Assembly: GCF_025398255.1 (NCBI RefSeq)
Contig: NZ_JAODNW010000025.1
Location: 1-48,200, forward strand
DNA from: Chelativorans intermedius
GTDB lineage: Bacteria > Pseudomonadota > Alphaproteobacteria > Rhizobiales > Rhizobiaceae
Direction of reading: 5' to 3'
Length of the DNA: 48,200 nucleotides
In this document: positions 42,823-48,200 of the stretch, piece by piece
Layout: the number at the start of each line of letters is the position of its first letter
How positions within the stretch are numbered: position 1 is the first letter of the stretch
Notes under the pieces: model-generated
What the model was told of the DNA's origin: nothing
What the model saw: only the letters and a program-made list of their open reading frames with translations
Databases searched by the model: none
Program-made: the position numbers and the translations under genes

Positions 42823-42836
42823 AGCCGCAAGCGGCT
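42823..42836 (-). terminator. Weak terminator-like hairpin at the dusA stop
   Basis: AGCCG-CAAG-CGGCT forms a 5-bp stem overlapping the dusA stop codon. On the minus strand it is followed by an A/T-richer tract (AATTTACTTT) rather than a clean U run. Termination would be inefficient. Confidence 0.3.
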
Positions 42837-43842
42837 AGGCCACGGCCTCGCGCTCCGGCAGCCCGACGGCGGCGAGCGCATCTCGCAGCACATCGGCGCC
42901 GGCTCCCGGCCGCGTGGCCCGCGTGGACAGGATCTGCCGAAAGCGTCGCGCCCCCGGTTGCCCGTGGAAGAGCCCCACCATATGGCGCGTGATGTGGGAA
43001 AGCCGGCCACCAGCCGCGATATGACGCTGGGCATAGGCTGCCATCGCCTCGACAACGGCAGCCGGATCGGCCCTGCGACGCTTCTCGCCGAACAGGCGCT
43101 GATCGACATCCGCAAGCAGTGCCGGGGTGTGGTAGGCAGCCCGCCCCATCATCGCACCGTCGAGCCGGAGGAGGTGCGCCTCAACCTCATCCAGACTTTG
43201 AATGCCGCCATTTATTCCTATGAATTTGTTTGGGTATTTTTCTTTCAGGCGATACACGCGCCCATAGTCGAGCGGCGGTATCTCTCGGTTCTCGCGCGGG
43301 CTCAACCCCGCCAGCCACGCCTTTCGCGCATGCACCCACAGCGCATCCGCGCCGGCGGCAAAGACCGCCTCGGCAAGCCTGTCGAGCGCCTCCTCCGGGT
43401 CCTGGTCGTCGACGCCGATACGGCTCTTGACCGTCACGGGAACCTTGACGCGCTCCTTCATCGCCGCCACGCACGCACCCACCAGATCCGGCGTCTTCAT
43501 CAGACAGGCGCCGAAGGTTCCCGACTGCACCCGGTCGGAGGGACAGCCGACATTGAGATTGATCTCGTCATAGCCGAAATCGGCGCCAATCGCCGCCGCC
43601 CGGGCCAGCTTGGCAGGTTCGGATCCGCCGATCTGCAGCGCCACGGGATGCTCCACGGCATCGAAGCCCAGGAGCTTCTCCCGCTCCCCGTGGATGACGG
43701 CATCGGCCACCACCATCTCCGTATAGAGCAGCGCCCGTCTGGTAAGCTGGCGATGAAAGAAACGGCAATGCCGGTCCGTCCAATCCATCATCGGGGCGAC
43801 GGCGAATATTTTCTCTTTGTTTTTCAATGATTTATGATACAT
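42835..43842 (-). CDS. dusA: tRNA-dihydrouridine(20/20a) synthase DusA, with foreign-looking 5-prime end
   Basis: A 335-residue FMN enzyme that reduces uridines in the tRNA D-loop. Signatures are VAPMMDWTDRH near 14-24, the catalytic LNVGCPSDRVQSG, and VTVKSRIGVDD. From codon 13 onward the sequence is GC-rich host-type. Codons 1-12 are AT-rich (7 G/C in 36 bases, including four AAA and one ATA) and encode a Lys-rich leader. That change, with an integrase gene head-to-head, suggests a mobile element recombined into the 5-prime end of dusA and supplied new first codons and a new promoter while keeping the gene intact. Confidence 0.9.
   Translation of the reverse strand: MYHKSLKNKEKIFAVAPMMDWTDRHCRFFHRQLTRRALLYTEMVVADAVIHGEREKLLGFDAVEHPVALQIGGSEPAKLARAAAIGADFGYDEINLNVGCPSDRVQSGTFGACLMKTPDLVGACVAAMKERVKVPVTVKSRIGVDDQDPEEALDRLAEAVFAAGADALWVHARKAWLAGLSPRENREIPPLDYGRVYRLKEKYPNKFIGINGGIQSLDEVEAHLLRLDGAMMGRAAYHTPALLADVDQRLFGEKRRRADPAAVVEAMAAYAQRHIAAGGRLSHITRHMVGLFHGQPGARRFRQILSTRATRPGAGADVLRDALAAVGLPEREAVA
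43770..43810. other. Putative island attachment junction (attL) in dusA
   Basis: This covers the codons of the conserved APMMDWTD segment and the abrupt change from GC-rich to AT-rich sequence at about 43806/43807. dusA is a reported recurrent integration target of a tyrosine-integrase family. The crossover is inferred: no second copy of this sequence was found inside the window, so the core cannot be delimited. Confidence 0.5.
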
Positions 43843-43868
43843 TTCGATGGCCTGAACCGTGAACGAAC

Positions 43869-43957
43869 TGTACGGAATTGGATCATTTTGTACGGATTTG
43901 TACCGGTTTTGATCTCTTGGTGTACGGAAATTGTACGGATTTCGGAAGCTGTACGGA
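43869..43957 (+). repeat. TGTACGGA direct repeats between dusA and the integrase gene
   Basis: Exact TGTACGGA starts at 43869, 43889, 43921, 43932 and 43950, with a variant TGTACCGG at 43899. Most are followed by A/T-rich trinucleotides. Start spacings are 20, 10, 22, 11 and 18 bp, so most lie close to the same helix face. All are in the same orientation and end 3 bp before the integrase ATG. They fit integrase arm-type sites or binding sites of an excisionase or repressor. They also cover the region that must hold both the integrase and dusA promoters. Confidence 0.75.
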
Positions 43958-43959
43958 AC

Positions 43960-45054
43960 ATGGCGACCATAGTCAAAACCAAAGAGGGAACCTGGCGAGC
44001 GCTCGTTCGCCGAAAGGGAAAATATGCATCGCAGACGTTCCGTCTCAAGTCCCTCGCCAACGAGTGGGCGATAGAAACAGAGCGCTTGATCGACATTGGT
44101 GGCGAACCAAGTCATCGGCAAATTCGAGATGCCAAGACTATTGCCGATCTCGTTGACCTGCACGTCTCGGACCTCCACGAGGTCGGGCGTCCCCTCCGAC
44201 GTTCAAAGCAGGCTGTCATGGAAGCTTTGAAACGTGATCTGGGCACCACCCGGATTAAACGTCTCGACCGCGCGGCTATCATAAAATACGGCCAGCGTCG
44301 TGCGAAACAGGGAGCGGGTCCTGTTACCCTTTCCGTTGACCTATCCTATCTTCGGACAGTTCTAACGCACGCAGCTGCAGTTCACGGAATATCGGTCGAC
44401 ACCGAAAGCGTCCGCCTCGCCCGGGCCGCCCTCACCCGGCTTGGCCTCGTCGGCCGATCATTCGAGCGAGATCGGCGCCCTACCGAAGACGAGATCGATG
44501 CGCTGCTCGATTACTTCGACAATAAGTCCAACACGATCATTCCAATGGGTCGGATCGTCCGTTTTGCGATCGCCACAGCCATGCGCCAGGAGGAAATCTG
44601 TAAAATCGATTGGAGCGACGTCGATCTCAAGAAGCGCGTGGTGCTCATCCGCGACAGGAAAGATCCGCGCCGCAAGGATGGCAACCACCAAAAGGTCCCC
44701 CTCCTCAACCTTGCAGGTTTTGATGCATGGCACCTTCTTCTTGAACAAAAGGTGCTAACCGGTGGGAAAGGCCGTTGTTTTCCCTATCACCACAAATCGG
44801 TTGGCACGGCGTTTCGACGAGGAAGAAAGGAACTCGGCATTGAGGATCTGCGCTTTCACGACCTGCGCCATGAAGCCACAAGCAGGCTATTCGAGGCAGG
44901 CCTGACGATTGAACGCGTCGCGCTGGTAACCGGGCATCGGGATTGGAAAATGCTCCGGCGGTACACCAACCTCAAACCCGAGGATCTGCATCAGCTGCAG
45001 ACGTCAAAGCAGGCCTCCGAGGAGGAGTTCTTCCGAATGCTCGCGGAGGACTAG
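43960..45054 (+). CDS. int: Tyrosine-type site-specific integrase
   Basis: A 364-residue recombinase. The N-terminus (1-50) looks like a small arm-binding domain, and the core-binding SAM-like domain spans about 55-145. The catalytic domain has the full set: R209 (AMRQEEI), K234, H300-x-x-R303 (HDLRHEA), H326 (VTGHRD) and nucleophile Y335. The ATG at 43960 gives the family-like MATIVK start; the open frame runs further upstream through the repeats but without gene-like character. Lower GC than the host genes. It should integrate and, with a recombination directionality factor, excise the island. Confidence 0.92.
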   Translation: MATIVKTKEGTWRALVRRKGKYASQTFRLKSLANEWAIETERLIDIGGEPSHRQIRDAKTIADLVDLHVSDLHEVGRPLRRSKQAVMEALKRDLGTTRIKRLDRAAIIKYGQRRAKQGAGPVTLSVDLSYLRTVLTHAAAVHGISVDTESVRLARAALTRLGLVGRSFERDRRPTEDEIDALLDYFDNKSNTIIPMGRIVRFAIATAMRQEEICKIDWSDVDLKKRVVLIRDRKDPRRKDGNHQKVPLLNLAGFDAWHLLLEQKVLTGGKGRCFPYHHKSVGTAFRRGRKELGIEDLRFHDLRHEATSRLFEAGLTIERVALVTGHRDWKMLRRYTNLKPEDLHQLQTSKQASEEEFFRMLAED

Positions 45055-45527
45055 GTCTGGTTGCGGGGGCTGTATCATCTTTACCTGCGACCGACCTCTC
45101 CGCTTCATCCCATGCTGCTCCTGATGGGGACAGCGCTTCTTCACCAAATATTCGCACAGCAGCGTAGGAAATAGACCCGAGATACGGCTTCACACGCGGC
45201 GCTATTTAAACAATCCCACCAACACTAAAATAGCGGGGATGCTGAGGTAGGGCAGCTTAAATGGGCCCGTCGCTCTCGGTCAGTGCTATTCACACCTTGC
45301 ACCACAAGCTTGGCCTCGGTCCCAATCGCCACGACGTATGTCATCGGAAGCAGGAATGTCGACATCGCCGACATCATGACAAGCTGGGGCCTACTCCATC
45401 AGAAGCATAAAGCCGTCCGATCGGCAGTGCCAGCGTATTGGCAAGGAGATTGGGCATCCGATGCGACGAATCGGATAAGACCGCGGTCTTCGTCAATCAC
45501 CGCAGAGAATCGTCATAGCCTACCCAC
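45055..45527. other. 473-bp non-coding stretch within the island
   Basis: No convincing gene is visible on either strand. Candidate sites are an 8-bp inverted repeat CGCTATTT/AAATAGCG (45200-45207, 45228-45235) and, close to the next gene, the inverted repeats listed separately at 45428-45490. The octamer palindrome CCGATCGG is at 45417-45424. It may hold the promoter of the 787-residue gene. Short open frames here have no recognisable features. Confidence 0.5.
45428..45490. promoter_or_regulatory. Cluster of inverted repeats upstream of the HTH-recombinase gene
   Basis: Three perfect inverted repeats lie in 63 bp: TGCCA-N6-TGGCA (45428-45443), ATCCGAT-N7-ATCGGAT (45456-45476) and, directly adjoining, the uninterrupted palindrome AAGACCGCGGTCTT (45477-45490). 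The last ends 37 bp before the ATG at 45528. The downstream protein has an HTH domain, so autoregulation is plausible. They could also be recombination sites. Confidence 0.4.
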
Positions 45528-47891
45528 ATGCCTGACCTTCCGCATACCAAACTGCTTGCCCGCAAGATCTCCGATTTCTGCCGCCTCCGTGTCGATCCCG
45601 CATTGCCCCCGCGGGACAGCACACGGATCAAAGAATTTCTCCTCTGCCTGATCGCCCAGTCGCAAACACCGCCTCGCAAGGTGCGTGGCTACGATTGGGA
45701 TGAAATCGCTCTTCAATGCGGCCTTGACAGGGATGTCCTTCGGGGCGCGAGAGCGGTGATCGAACCGGCATTCGACGCAATCGTCCGGAATACGAAAAAC
45801 CCTACCAATCGCCCTTCCGCCAAGATCCGAACGACAGAGGATTCCAAGCCGCGTCCGCGACGCGGCCGTCCTCCGCGACAGCCAGTGGAAAAGCCAAGCG
45901 CTGCCGCGCACATTGACGCGACGGATCGATCAGAACGGCAGCCCGCAACGAACCGGCGGAAGCCCGGCATCAAGCCGCGCGCGATCGAGGAGTTCCCAAC
46001 ACCCCTCTTCGATGACTGGCTCGACCCACCAACCTTTCGGGAGGCACTGGAGCTGCACATGCGTCGCCACGGCGACAGCTATTGGCATCTCCACCGTGCC
46101 GTCGTTCGCGATGACGAAAAGTTCGACCATTCCACGATCCGCCACTGGCTGCAGGGAACGAAGGCGCCCCGCAGCGTTGCAAGCATGGAAGTTCTCGGTC
46201 GCGTTGAGCGCCGCTATCGCCTCCCGGCGGGCTATTTCAAAGCAAAGCTCCCGCATCAGACGCGGTCGACCTCTGGCTACGTCCTCGACGATATCGCTCC
46301 GGCCGAGCGACGGCGGCTCGCCTGGCACCTGCCTGACGATTTCAACACACGCCCCCGCCAGGAACAGGAGGAAATCCTTGAATGGGTTCAGCGCGTCATC
46401 ATCAGGGGCTCAACAGACTACAGGCGGTTCCAGGCGGCCGCGATGAAGCAGCGCTACGCAATCCGTTTTCCAGGGATCGCATACGGTCAGTCTGACGCTG
46501 CGGATTGCCACCGAAACAAATACGAGGAGCAGGACGAAGACAGCACTTCCTTCACCGATCCGGATCTGCGGTCCGGCGTCATCGATGCTCCACCCGTCCT
46601 CGCCATGGAAATGGCCGAACTCATCCGGTTCAAGACCGCAACGCTCACCGCATTCGGTCTGCAGCGGAATGGTGTCTGGGGCGAGGAGACCGCATCGCAG
46701 AAGGTTGAGCATCTCGGCCTGATGTTCGGGGCATTGGCCGCCCATCCGCGCGGCCCGGTCCGCGGCTACGGCGTGCCGCTGCAACACCTGACCTTCGGCC
46801 TTCTCGTTTTCCCCTCCATCTGGGACTGGTATGTGCAATGGCGCGAAAGGCGGCGTGGCTTCTATACGGCCTGGGAGGTGGACATGCTGCGCATTTCGCT
46901 CGCCCTCACCCGGAGGGAAACGGGCTGGCTGCGGCAGCATCCTCGTCTCGGATCACGGCTCCGGCCGATCGAAGGACTGATTACGCAGGCGGACATCGAC
47001 CGCGCCTGTGCCGACTGGGACGATGCCTGCGACGTCTATTTCAAGCATGCGTCCTCCCGCGCGAGGGAGATCCAGCGTGTCGCACGGGTGCATCGTGACC
47101 CGTTCGAGCCAATCATGCCGGTATTGGAGGCCGAAAGCCCGGTCGGTGAATATCGGAAGATCACGGAAGAGATCCTCCGGCTCATGCCGGACGAGCGGCT
47201 CTATCGTCGCCCGGCGGCGGAAGCTGCCCGATCATTCCTGATGCTGCGCTTCGGGCTGCACCTTGGATTGCGGCAGAAAAACCTGCGTCAGTTGATGGTC
47301 TGCGAACGCGGGAAACTGCCGCGATCCGAGCGGCAGCTGGCTGACATGAAGCGCGGCGAGATCCGATGGAGCGAACGAGACAATGGCTGGGAAGTGCTGA
47401 TCCCGTCGGTCGCCTTCAAGAACGCCAACTCGTCCTATTTCGGGAGCAAGCCGTTTCGACTGATCCTCCCTGACCTCGGCGGCCTCTACGATCACATCGA
47501 GGCCTATATCGACCGGCATCGGCGTGTGCTTCTCGGGGGTGCCGAGGATCCAGGCACATTCTTCGTCAAGACGGTGAAGACGACGAGCAAGGACGCTTCG
47601 TACGATCAGAACACATTTTATGAGGCCTGGCGCCTGACGATCCAGCGATATGGAATCTATAACCCCTACACGGGACGGGGCGCGATTCCCGGTCTCCTCC
47701 CTCACGGCCCACATAACGTCCGCGACGTGCTGGCGACGCATATTCTCAAGCAGACCGGTTCCTATGAGCAGGCGAGCTATGCCATCCAGGACACCCCTGA
47801 TATGGTCGCGCACCACTACGGTCGTTTTCTGCCGCAGGACAAGGCGGCTCTCGCTGCGCGGATTTTGAACCAGGTCTGGGAAGCGGCGTAG
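45528..47891 (+). CDS. Large HTH-tyrosine recombinase-like protein (787 residues)
   Basis: I do not recognise this as a named family. An N-terminal region (1-85) has a possible HTH around YDWDEIALQCGLDRDVLRGA. A basic Pro/Arg linker (86-150) is followed by an XRE-like HTH (about 165-237, STIRHWLQGTKAP). A long helical middle (250-555) could be the core-binding part. The C-terminus (560-787) reads as a tyrosine-recombinase catalytic domain: R582 in LGLRQKNLRQL, K631, H729-x-x-R732 (HNVRDVLATHI) and candidate nucleophile Y764 (AHHYGRF). The usual second His (GH) is absent; IQDTP stands there. It is about twice the size of ordinary integrases. The ATG at 45528 has no good Shine-Dalgarno. Confidence 0.7.
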   Translation: MPDLPHTKLLARKISDFCRLRVDPALPPRDSTRIKEFLLCLIAQSQTPPRKVRGYDWDEIALQCGLDRDVLRGARAVIEPAFDAIVRNTKNPTNRPSAKIRTTEDSKPRPRRGRPPRQPVEKPSAAAHIDATDRSERQPATNRRKPGIKPRAIEEFPTPLFDDWLDPPTFREALELHMRRHGDSYWHLHRAVVRDDEKFDHSTIRHWLQGTKAPRSVASMEVLGRVERRYRLPAGYFKAKLPHQTRSTSGYVLDDIAPAERRRLAWHLPDDFNTRPRQEQEEILEWVQRVIIRGSTDYRRFQAAAMKQRYAIRFPGIAYGQSDAADCHRNKYEEQDEDSTSFTDPDLRSGVIDAPPVLAMEMAELIRFKTATLTAFGLQRNGVWGEETASQKVEHLGLMFGALAAHPRGPVRGYGVPLQHLTFGLLVFPSIWDWYVQWRERRRGFYTAWEVDMLRISLALTRRETGWLRQHPRLGSRLRPIEGLITQADIDRACADWDDACDVYFKHASSRAREIQRVARVHRDPFEPIMPVLEAESPVGEYRKITEEILRLMPDERLYRRPAAEAARSFLMLRFGLHLGLRQKNLRQLMVCERGKLPRSERQLADMKRGEIRWSERDNGWEVLIPSVAFKNANSSYFGSKPFRLILPDLGGLYDHIEAYIDRHRRVLLGGAEDPGTFFVKTVKTTSKDASYDQNTFYEAWRLTIQRYGIYNPYTGRGAIPGLLPHGPHNVRDVLATHILKQTGSYEQASYAIQDTPDMVAHHYGRFLPQDKAALAARILNQVWEAA

Positions 47892-48070
47892 GCGGCTTCG
47901 GGCAAGCCGGTGGTAAGCAGCTGCGCCGCATACGAAGCTCGTAAGTTGCCCAGGATGCAAATGGGTTTGACCATCATCTCGGACAGGAGAAAGCTCAGTC
48001 AACGGACTTAGGAGTTCGATTCCTTCATGACACCACGTTGGCACGGCCAGTATAGGGCCGGAAGCGGAAT

Positions 48071-48200
48071 TGACCTGCCCCCAAGAAACTGGGCCATTCA
48101 AAAGGAGAGTTTGTTCTCTTAACGTTCGAAGCAACAAGGAGAACAGACGATGCGCAAATCACGTTTCACCGAAGAACAGATTGTCGGGATCCTGCAGGAG
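48071..48200 (+). mobile_element. IS3-family insertion sequence, left end (cut by window end)
   Basis: The putative left terminal inverted repeat begins TGACCTGCCCCCAAG at 48071 and is followed about 80 bp later by the first transposase frame. The right inverted repeat and target duplication are outside the window. The 179 bp between the 787-residue gene and this point show only a small hairpin (47893-47909) and no gene. Confidence 0.65.
48150..48200 (+). CDS. IS3 family transposase OrfA (partial, 5-prime end only)
   Basis: The first 17 codons read MRKSRFTEEQIVGILQE, the characteristic N-terminus of the HTH-containing OrfA of IS3-family (IS407-like) elements. AAGGAGAAC lies 6-14 bp upstream of the ATG. 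OrfB and the rest of OrfA are beyond the window, so integrity cannot be judged. Confidence 0.85.
   Translation, partial: MRKSRFTEEQIVGILQE

Follow-up and report, generated by a model that had tools for sequence, protein, structure and literature searches.

P0001, a 787-aa protein encoded in a 48,200-nucleotide stretch of Chelativorans intermedius DNA (the whole stretch is called the window below), probably belongs to an undescribed family of large recombinases that drives, or marks, an integron-like cassette system in a Rhizobiaceae clade. Sequence comparison shows the family with its catalytic residues, the site and its orientation, the exchange inside the site, and the contents of the cassettes. 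We suggest that each cassette would start with a right arm, GGATTCGAACCnnCGACCC, carry one to several genes, and end with a left arm, and that neighboring cassettes would have a crossover segment, CTTGA(A/T), in common, with nearly all sites oriented like the recombinase gene. Strand exchange within CTTGA(A/T) would insert, remove, or swap cassettes. The recombinase gene would itself be cassette-borne, in many cases together with a toxin or TA gene that would make its loss costly. We infer that the P0001-family enzyme performs the exchange, that its HTH may read the site or autoregulate the recombinase gene, and that the toxin may stabilize the cassette.

P0001 and its relatives

The gene was defined by ORF translation and alignment as follows:

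45528..47891, + strand: P0001, a 787-aa XRE-HTH/tyrosine-recombinase-like protein

A preliminary description of this DNA had proposed an ORF of 787 residues here, with R582, K631, H729, R732, and Y764 as recombinase residues. The ORF is real and intact, beginning with ATG and containing no internal stop, and all five residues lie where they had been placed. No family in Pfam, PHROGs, or NCBIfam matched P0001 at E ≤ 1. A search of the PDB with the protein returned chance-level chains only (E 0.38 and above), and a search of the PDB with its C-terminal alignment returned no recombinase (E 0.059 and above).

The P0001 gene is single copy in the C. intermedius genome. By tblastn, relatives occur in 208 plasmid records, 177 of them from Rhizobium, Sinorhizobium, or Agrobacterium, and in none of 50,697 phage records. 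Matches were also found in 38 of 199 Rhizobiaceae genomes, many of them mere fragments, and in 8 of 398 genomes from a phylum-wide sample. A pattern scan of species-representative genomes yielded 460 stretches that encode relatives; the best 80 of these 460, labelled alphaproteobacteria or just "Proteobacteria," entered our locus set, to which five viral-contig loci were added. The 90 long loci considered below are L021–L110. More distant relatives lie on plasmids of Thermus thermophilus, T. aquaticus, and two Deinococcus strains. Among the 40 plasmid copies listed, the annotation is "hypothetical protein" or there is no feature, and we found no account of the family or of the cassette system in open-licence papers. 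P0001 and its relatives form a family of large, apparently undescribed tyrosine recombinases.

Two further observations concern these plasmids. On the Thermus and Deinococcus plasmids (L134, L139, L140, and L141), the homolog overlaps a large protein directly behind it, which in Thermus is annotated as a toprim-domain protein and is followed by ParA. Several S. meliloti plasmids (e.g., H81–H88) carry a scrap of the recombinase C terminus, from about residue 730 to 785 at about 77% identity, which is mostly unannotated.

A putative tyrosine recombinase domain with Asp at box III

The C-terminal features of P0001 are listed with their conservation in a 59-row alignment; the domain itself was placed by hhalign against integrases:

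47160..47888, + strand: divergent tyrosine-recombinase catalytic domain, about residues 545–787 (start approximate)
47271..47273, + strand: R582 codon, box I Arg (59/59)
47418..47420, + strand: K631 codon, presumed catalytic Lys between two predicted strands (59/59)
47712..47723, + strand: H729-x-x-R732, box II (H729 57/59, R732 59/59)
47790..47792, + strand: D755, at the place of box III His/Trp (59/59)
47817..47819, + strand: Y764, presumed nucleophile (59/59)

A smaller alignment of 54 rows (A2) has R582, K631, R732, and Y764 in 54/54 rows each and H729 in 53/54. The 59-row version adds two Thermus, two Deinococcus, and one genome of the same order; R582, K631, R732, D755, and Y764 are present in all of its rows, and 23 of its 787 columns are invariant. 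The usual GH motif had been reported as replaced, and QD indeed stands in its place (residues 754–755). By alignment count, the spacings H729–D755 (26) and D755–Y764 (9) are the same as those of H-(G)H-Y in the neighboring integrase. Box II of a Thermus homolog reads HSLRHIVAT.

We compared the domain by hhalign with integrases. With close relatives only, the comparison gave E 0.0038 (Prob 8.7); with two distant relatives added, it gave E 1.3e-4 (Prob 54); and with five distant relatives it scored 40.6 over 178 collinear columns (E 8.8e-5, Prob 60). As a calibration, 56 other ORF families of the loci were compared as well, the highest of which scored 26.9 over 34 columns (E 0.0068). Two AF2 models had mean pLDDT values of 63 and 60, with low confidence in the catalytic part, and Foldseek searches with both of these low-confidence models gave no match at E ≤ 0.001. 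The predicted secondary structure, likewise of low confidence, follows the order expected: a helix, R, strands flanking K, more helices, HxxR, Y, and a last helix. Because its profile aligns with ordinary integrases over this length, we take the C-terminal domain for a divergent tyrosine recombinase in which Asp replaces the box III His; this replacement of box III His/Trp is also why we describe P0001 as a divergent branch.

With the tyrosine recombinase superfamily (PF00589; Xer, Cre, and phage integrases), P0001 shares R, K, HxxR, and Y in order, the 26 and 9 spacing from HxxR through box III to Y, and the low-confidence order of helices and strands. It differs in having Asp where the superfamily has box III His or Trp, in lacking a Pfam match, and in carrying more than 500 N-terminal residues with an XRE HTH where the superfamily has a short arm-binding domain. 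An excerpt of PMC8138268 describes simple and arm-binding-domain recombinases, none of them built like P0001.

Of the two HTH modules proposed for the protein, one is supported and the second was not borne out:

46020..46232, + strand: region aligned with the XRE-type HTH of a Thermus homolog, about residues 165–235 (AF2 blocks with pLDDT 74–91)

The aligned segment of the Thermus homolog matches HTH_31 at 6e-9. P0001's own sequence has no Pfam HTH match, and support for the HTH comes via the Thermus homologs. Residues 1–90 of P0001 are helical in the AF2 model, with good confidence. The family layout comprises an N-terminal helical domain, an XRE-type HTH, a middle region, and a divergent catalytic domain with R-K-H-R-D-Y. 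P0001 had also been considered as an integrase-derived regulator, a reading that we do not favor, since conservation is higher in the catalytic part than in the HTH part. A dual role, recombinase plus regulator, is possible.

A T-arm-like site bounds cassettes in a Rhizobiaceae clade

Seven ORF families supply a gene ≤600 bp upstream of the recombinase in 35 of the 90 long loci: HNH_2 nuclease (12), HipA (9, in two families), PIN (5), Fic (5), DUF1403 (2), or DUF1612 (2). Several of the seven families are also found downstream or farther from the recombinase. In many related pairs of loci, the alignment that holds the recombinase spans the toxin-type genes plus the recombinase and then ends abruptly. 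PIN units have a shared alignment from about -1290 to between +34 and +94 (87–95% identity), and HNH/HipA units have one from about -2715/-2778 to +103 (85–96% identity). The shared alignment is longer in other related pairs, reaching up to 16 kb in group A, one of the groups without the site described next.

Cassettes in the Rhizobiaceae clade are bounded by a repeated, single-orientation site, GCCTTGAAnGGATTCGAACCnnCGACCC, which became visible solely via closely related pairs; its motif occurs at both ends of both aligned unit types (PIN and HNH/HipA). We scanned 91 sequences (the 90 loci and the window; 1.84 Mb) on both strands with a hand-made consensus, which matched 65 times versus 8 times in a single shuffled set. 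With the recombinase gene excluded, 56 matches had the orientation of the gene ("+") and 5 the opposite one ("-"). A scoring matrix trained on the "+" matches of the same loci gave, at ≥11 bits, 81 "+" and 18 "-" matches after 13 that overlap tRNA genes were set aside; the weakest of these matches are noise, the window's one "+" match included, and a few "-" matches resemble tRNA pieces. The site consensus is CGCCTTGAAnGGAnTCGAACCnnCGACCC.

The right arm of the site resembles a tRNA T-arm. The motif might therefore be decayed tRNA-gene debris at tRNA-integrating islands, with the apparent cassettes being ordinary genomic islands, and true tRNA genes do score with the matrix, as seen in the 13 matches that overlap ARAGORN tRNAs and in the tRNA-like "-" matches. 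However, ARAGORN called no tRNA at the 81 "+" sites, and the CTTGAA segment lies outside the T-arm. We consider tRNA debris a very improbable explanation and continue with the site as a cassette boundary.

In 15 of the 90 long loci, the site lies 39–122 bp past the recombinase stop. These 15 sites have a left arm of about GTCGTCTYCGC in common, whereas the left arm is variable in 51 other sites; the right arm is the same in both sets. The constant left arm behind recombinase genes may reflect common descent. When the 15 recombinase-side sites were folded as RNA, long hairpins formed beside the core and not across it.

By eye, a long hairpin lies between the stop codon and the site in at least 8 of these 15 loci, and hairpins without an obvious T-run were seen just past the stop in L086, L070, L097, L095, L082, and L104. 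An att site embedded in the 3' end of the recombinase gene was considered and rejected, synonymous conservation having no sharp peak there. A search for conserved noncoding words downstream of the gene in all clades found none above shuffles.

Related plasmids differ by cassettes that break at the site core

On plasmid pAtBbcg2-2 of A. pusense (L133), four same-direction sites bound [HTH+PIN+recombinase], [VapBC], and [hypothetical+VapC]. Other cassettes free of a recombinase carry ParE/RelB (L078), OmpW (L078), Fic (L065), a VOC gene (L132), ParE with a weakly matching ParD (L088, 0.68 kb), or a REase-ARP nuclease with DUF2726 (L070).

Comparison of related plasmids places the exchange within the site. 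First, an alignment of pAtC58 (L128) with Kin001 (L135), at 96.6%, runs into the site as far as ...ACCTTGAA/...TTTAGACCTTGAA, beyond which the two diverge. Second, 1D1478/12D13 (L136/L137) share 99.1/98.4% identity with pAtC58 over the 5.9 kb that follow CCTTGAA but differ from it ahead of that point; in L136 and L137, agreement starts at another site likewise. These alignments indicate that related plasmids exchanged partners exactly inside CTTGAA. The same modules also appear between other neighbors: strain MWF001 carries the VapBC cassette (L143, 95.7%), and Shinella oryzae carries the VapC cassette (L142, 95.4%). Both copies are flanked on either side by a site, and the breaks fall at the core.

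A two-cassette query matched 52 records, and among the 40 listed, 35 matches end inside the query. The ends of 21 of these 35 fall in 26- and 36-base windows round the two cores, which make up 62 of 1881 query bases (3.3%); the windows were chosen once the ends were known, and the records are non-independent. A second moved-cassette query (L088) found one record. Single-module cassettes of 0.7–0.9 kb, flanked by sites on either side, are found in several plasmid settings, which again argues against tRNA debris.

The plasmid setting raises another explanation, that the protein, by analogy with Cre or the XerD-like CDS5 near repABC, is a plasmid stability recombinase that resolves multimers at a site beside its gene, and that this gene and the adjoining TA modules belong to one maintenance region. 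In the excerpt of PMC10194956 used here, CDS5 of pSmeLPU88b near repABC is a Cre-like XerD; rhizobial plasmids, TA genes nearby, and a tyrosine recombinase are common to such repABC-linked recombinases and to the P0001 system, and the excerpt mentions no cassette sites for CDS5. We found repC at most about 46 kb from the recombinase gene on 9/9 plasmids tested, namely those behind L021–L025 and L111–L114, a set that left out plasmids fetched later, pAtC58 among them. TA neighbors fit a stability function too, as do both Thermus homologs, which lie on 11–13 kb plasmids two genes before a ParA gene. Yet partner exchange at the site is not resolution, recombinase-free cassettes lie between different neighbors, one copy is in a one-contig 5.0-Mb genome, and fragments and multiple copies occur. 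We regard plasmid stability as quite unlikely to be the role of the family and retain cassette exchange.

The site tracks one clade of recombinases

In a tree of 82 recombinases, the site is present at 29 of 45 loci in one clade (SH-aLRT 89) and at 0 of the 37 loci elsewhere in the tree (Fisher 8e-11, without correction for relatedness). Group A accounts for 15 of the 37 site-less loci and comprises 11 from Rhizobium, Ensifer, or Sinorhizobium, 3 from Rhizobiales, and one viral contig. Most members of this site-less group come from the same genera of hosts as the loci with sites, so site presence is not explained by host alone.

The association recurs at the genome level. Under strict search filters, a strong site is present in 27 of 199 Rhizobiaceae genomes (best E ≤ 1e-5, a threshold chosen with the list in view), and a recombinase match is found in 16 of these 27 versus 22 of the 172 others (p = 5e-7). 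Eleven strong-site genomes have no recombinase match, one of which (G128) has an N-terminal scrap in a second search. Because of these 11 genomes, another enzyme could act at the sites, or the sites could be relics.

In the window, an integrase lies upstream of P0001, which Pfam searches identify together with a Dus gene:

42835..44178, - strand: Dus gene (Dus 1.3e-78)
43834..45054, + strand: ordinary integrase beside dus (PF00589 1.2e-24), not a constant partner

The preliminary description was right that a dus-linked integrase lies upstream. It had suggested checking whether homologs always sit next to a dusA-type integrase; this did not hold, as ordinary integrase-like ORFs (15 in all, detected with an HMM of seven integrases) are in the fetched flanks of 14 of the 90 long loci. 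Nor did the proposed tie to that integrase, since among 14 loci compared at the DNA level the integrase-gene order is common to L028 alone, a close relative.

An ordinary integrase or a chromosomal recombinase, for example, might nevertheless move the cassettes, with the P0001-type protein as a passenger or regulator. Such a division of labor would accommodate the 11 genomes without a recombinase match and the HTH domain, and the recombinase activity of the family is a prediction. Against it, the 15 loci described above have the site immediately after the recombinase gene, the site tracks one recombinase clade, ordinary integrase-like ORFs are near so few loci, and the 23 invariant columns include the catalytic residues. 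We judge the involvement of another enzyme unlikely and keep the P0001 family as the candidate. The evidence for a cassette system in the Rhizobiaceae clade is good, and that for the P0001 family as its putative enzyme is suggestive but indirect.

The window's own clade and group A

In the window's clade (L026–L038), we found no consistent T-arm-like site near the gene. The window's best site score is 3.4 bits downstream, with none upstream; the 95% point of random 400-base pieces is 7.2 bits. Single matches above 7.2 bits occur in L028, L029, L035, and L038 (7.8–16.4 bits) and disagree in place and strand. Across the C. intermedius genome, the site model gave weak matches (best E 0.0015), which we take for putative tRNA genes. 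A reverse-strand look-alike near 48004–48031 was dropped as a site at 0.2 bits. The window's copy is assigned to the enzyme family, and a cassette context for the window would follow from its relatives.

P0001 had been proposed as a second recombinase that acts on another site. For the family, this proposal is supported by the invariant catalytic residues, the canonical spacing, the collinear integrase profile match, and the related clade's own site; that site was found in the related clade and not in the window's clade.

What the window shares with its closest relatives is the gene plus 64–210 bp of upstream sequence and at most 64 bp after it. L028 also shares the dus/integrase side with the window, in separate alignments. 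One upstream element was read by eye in the upstream sequences:

45468..45479, + strand: GAATCGGATAAG, the first part of which is conserved in the window's clade

By eye, GAATCGG is conserved in this clade about 55 bp before the start codon; it may belong to a promoter/operator or be a clade-specific site. At the contig end, an ORF starts at window positions 48150–48200 that resembles an IS3-family OrfA.

Group A has no T-arm-like site. A palindrome similar to GCGGAAATNATTTCCGC lies about +15 after the recombinase in this group and again 7.5–9.2 kb upstream; pairs of such palindromes were seen in 8 loci (L044, L046, L048, L053, L055, L062, L066, and L075). The module between them holds an AAA ATPase, an M41-like peptidase, and further genes. 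The palindrome may be group A's site or a terminator. In 12 group A loci, the gene of a second large recombinase-like protein of about 740 aa, with DUF6538 and a weak Phage_integrase match (e.g., L062:12382–14604, - strand), converges on the family gene; hhalign of this DUF6538 protein against the P0001 family gave no useful similarity.

Comparison with known systems and implications

Integrons are the standard example of cassette shuffling, and their attC core consensus is GTTRRRY...RYYYAAC. The P0001 system has several integron features: same-orientation arrays of small cassettes with one or few genes, TA modules included (here in the Rhizobiaceae clade only); exchange within a short conserved segment; a tyrosine recombinase encoded with the system; and a constant arm at the recombinase end with variable arms elsewhere. 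On the comparative evidence, the P0001 family would work like an integron recombinase. It differs in its recombinase, which is of another family (787 aa, XRE HTH, box III Asp) and has no NCBIfam integron-integrase match at E ≤ 1, whereas the neighboring integrase matches the integron-integrase model weakly. It also differs in its site, GCCTTGAAnGGATTCGAACC as opposed to the integron consensus. Unlike in integrons, the recombinase gene is itself part of a cassette and points the same way as the sites; certain genes within cassettes are reversed (Fic in L128 and L065); and cassettes are single as well as arrayed. Because there is no IntI profile and the site is another, we do not count the cassette system among the integrons.

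Tycheposons are tRNA-associated elements with tyrosine recombinases that use real tRNA genes. Recombination at a tRNA-like sequence and cargo exchange are common to both systems, whereas ARAGORN finds no tRNA at the sites described here.

A broader reading, which we hold to be about evenly balanced, is that this is a second gene-cassette system, independent of integrons, in which a giant HTH-tyrosine recombinase with box III Asp captures and shuffles TA, defence, and other genes at T-arm-like sites. The recombinase would itself be a toxin-locked cassette, clades (the window's included) would use different sites, and the enzyme family would extend to Deinococcota plasmids.

The same logic with another enzyme and another site would suggest that cassette shuffling evolved more than once. 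The Asp at box III poses a new catalytic question, and with a site, an enzyme, and natural cassettes down to 0.7 kb in hand, the system is directly testable. It would assign a function to many "hypothetical protein" genes and would help explain the spread of TA and other genes among rhizobial and Agrobacterium plasmids.
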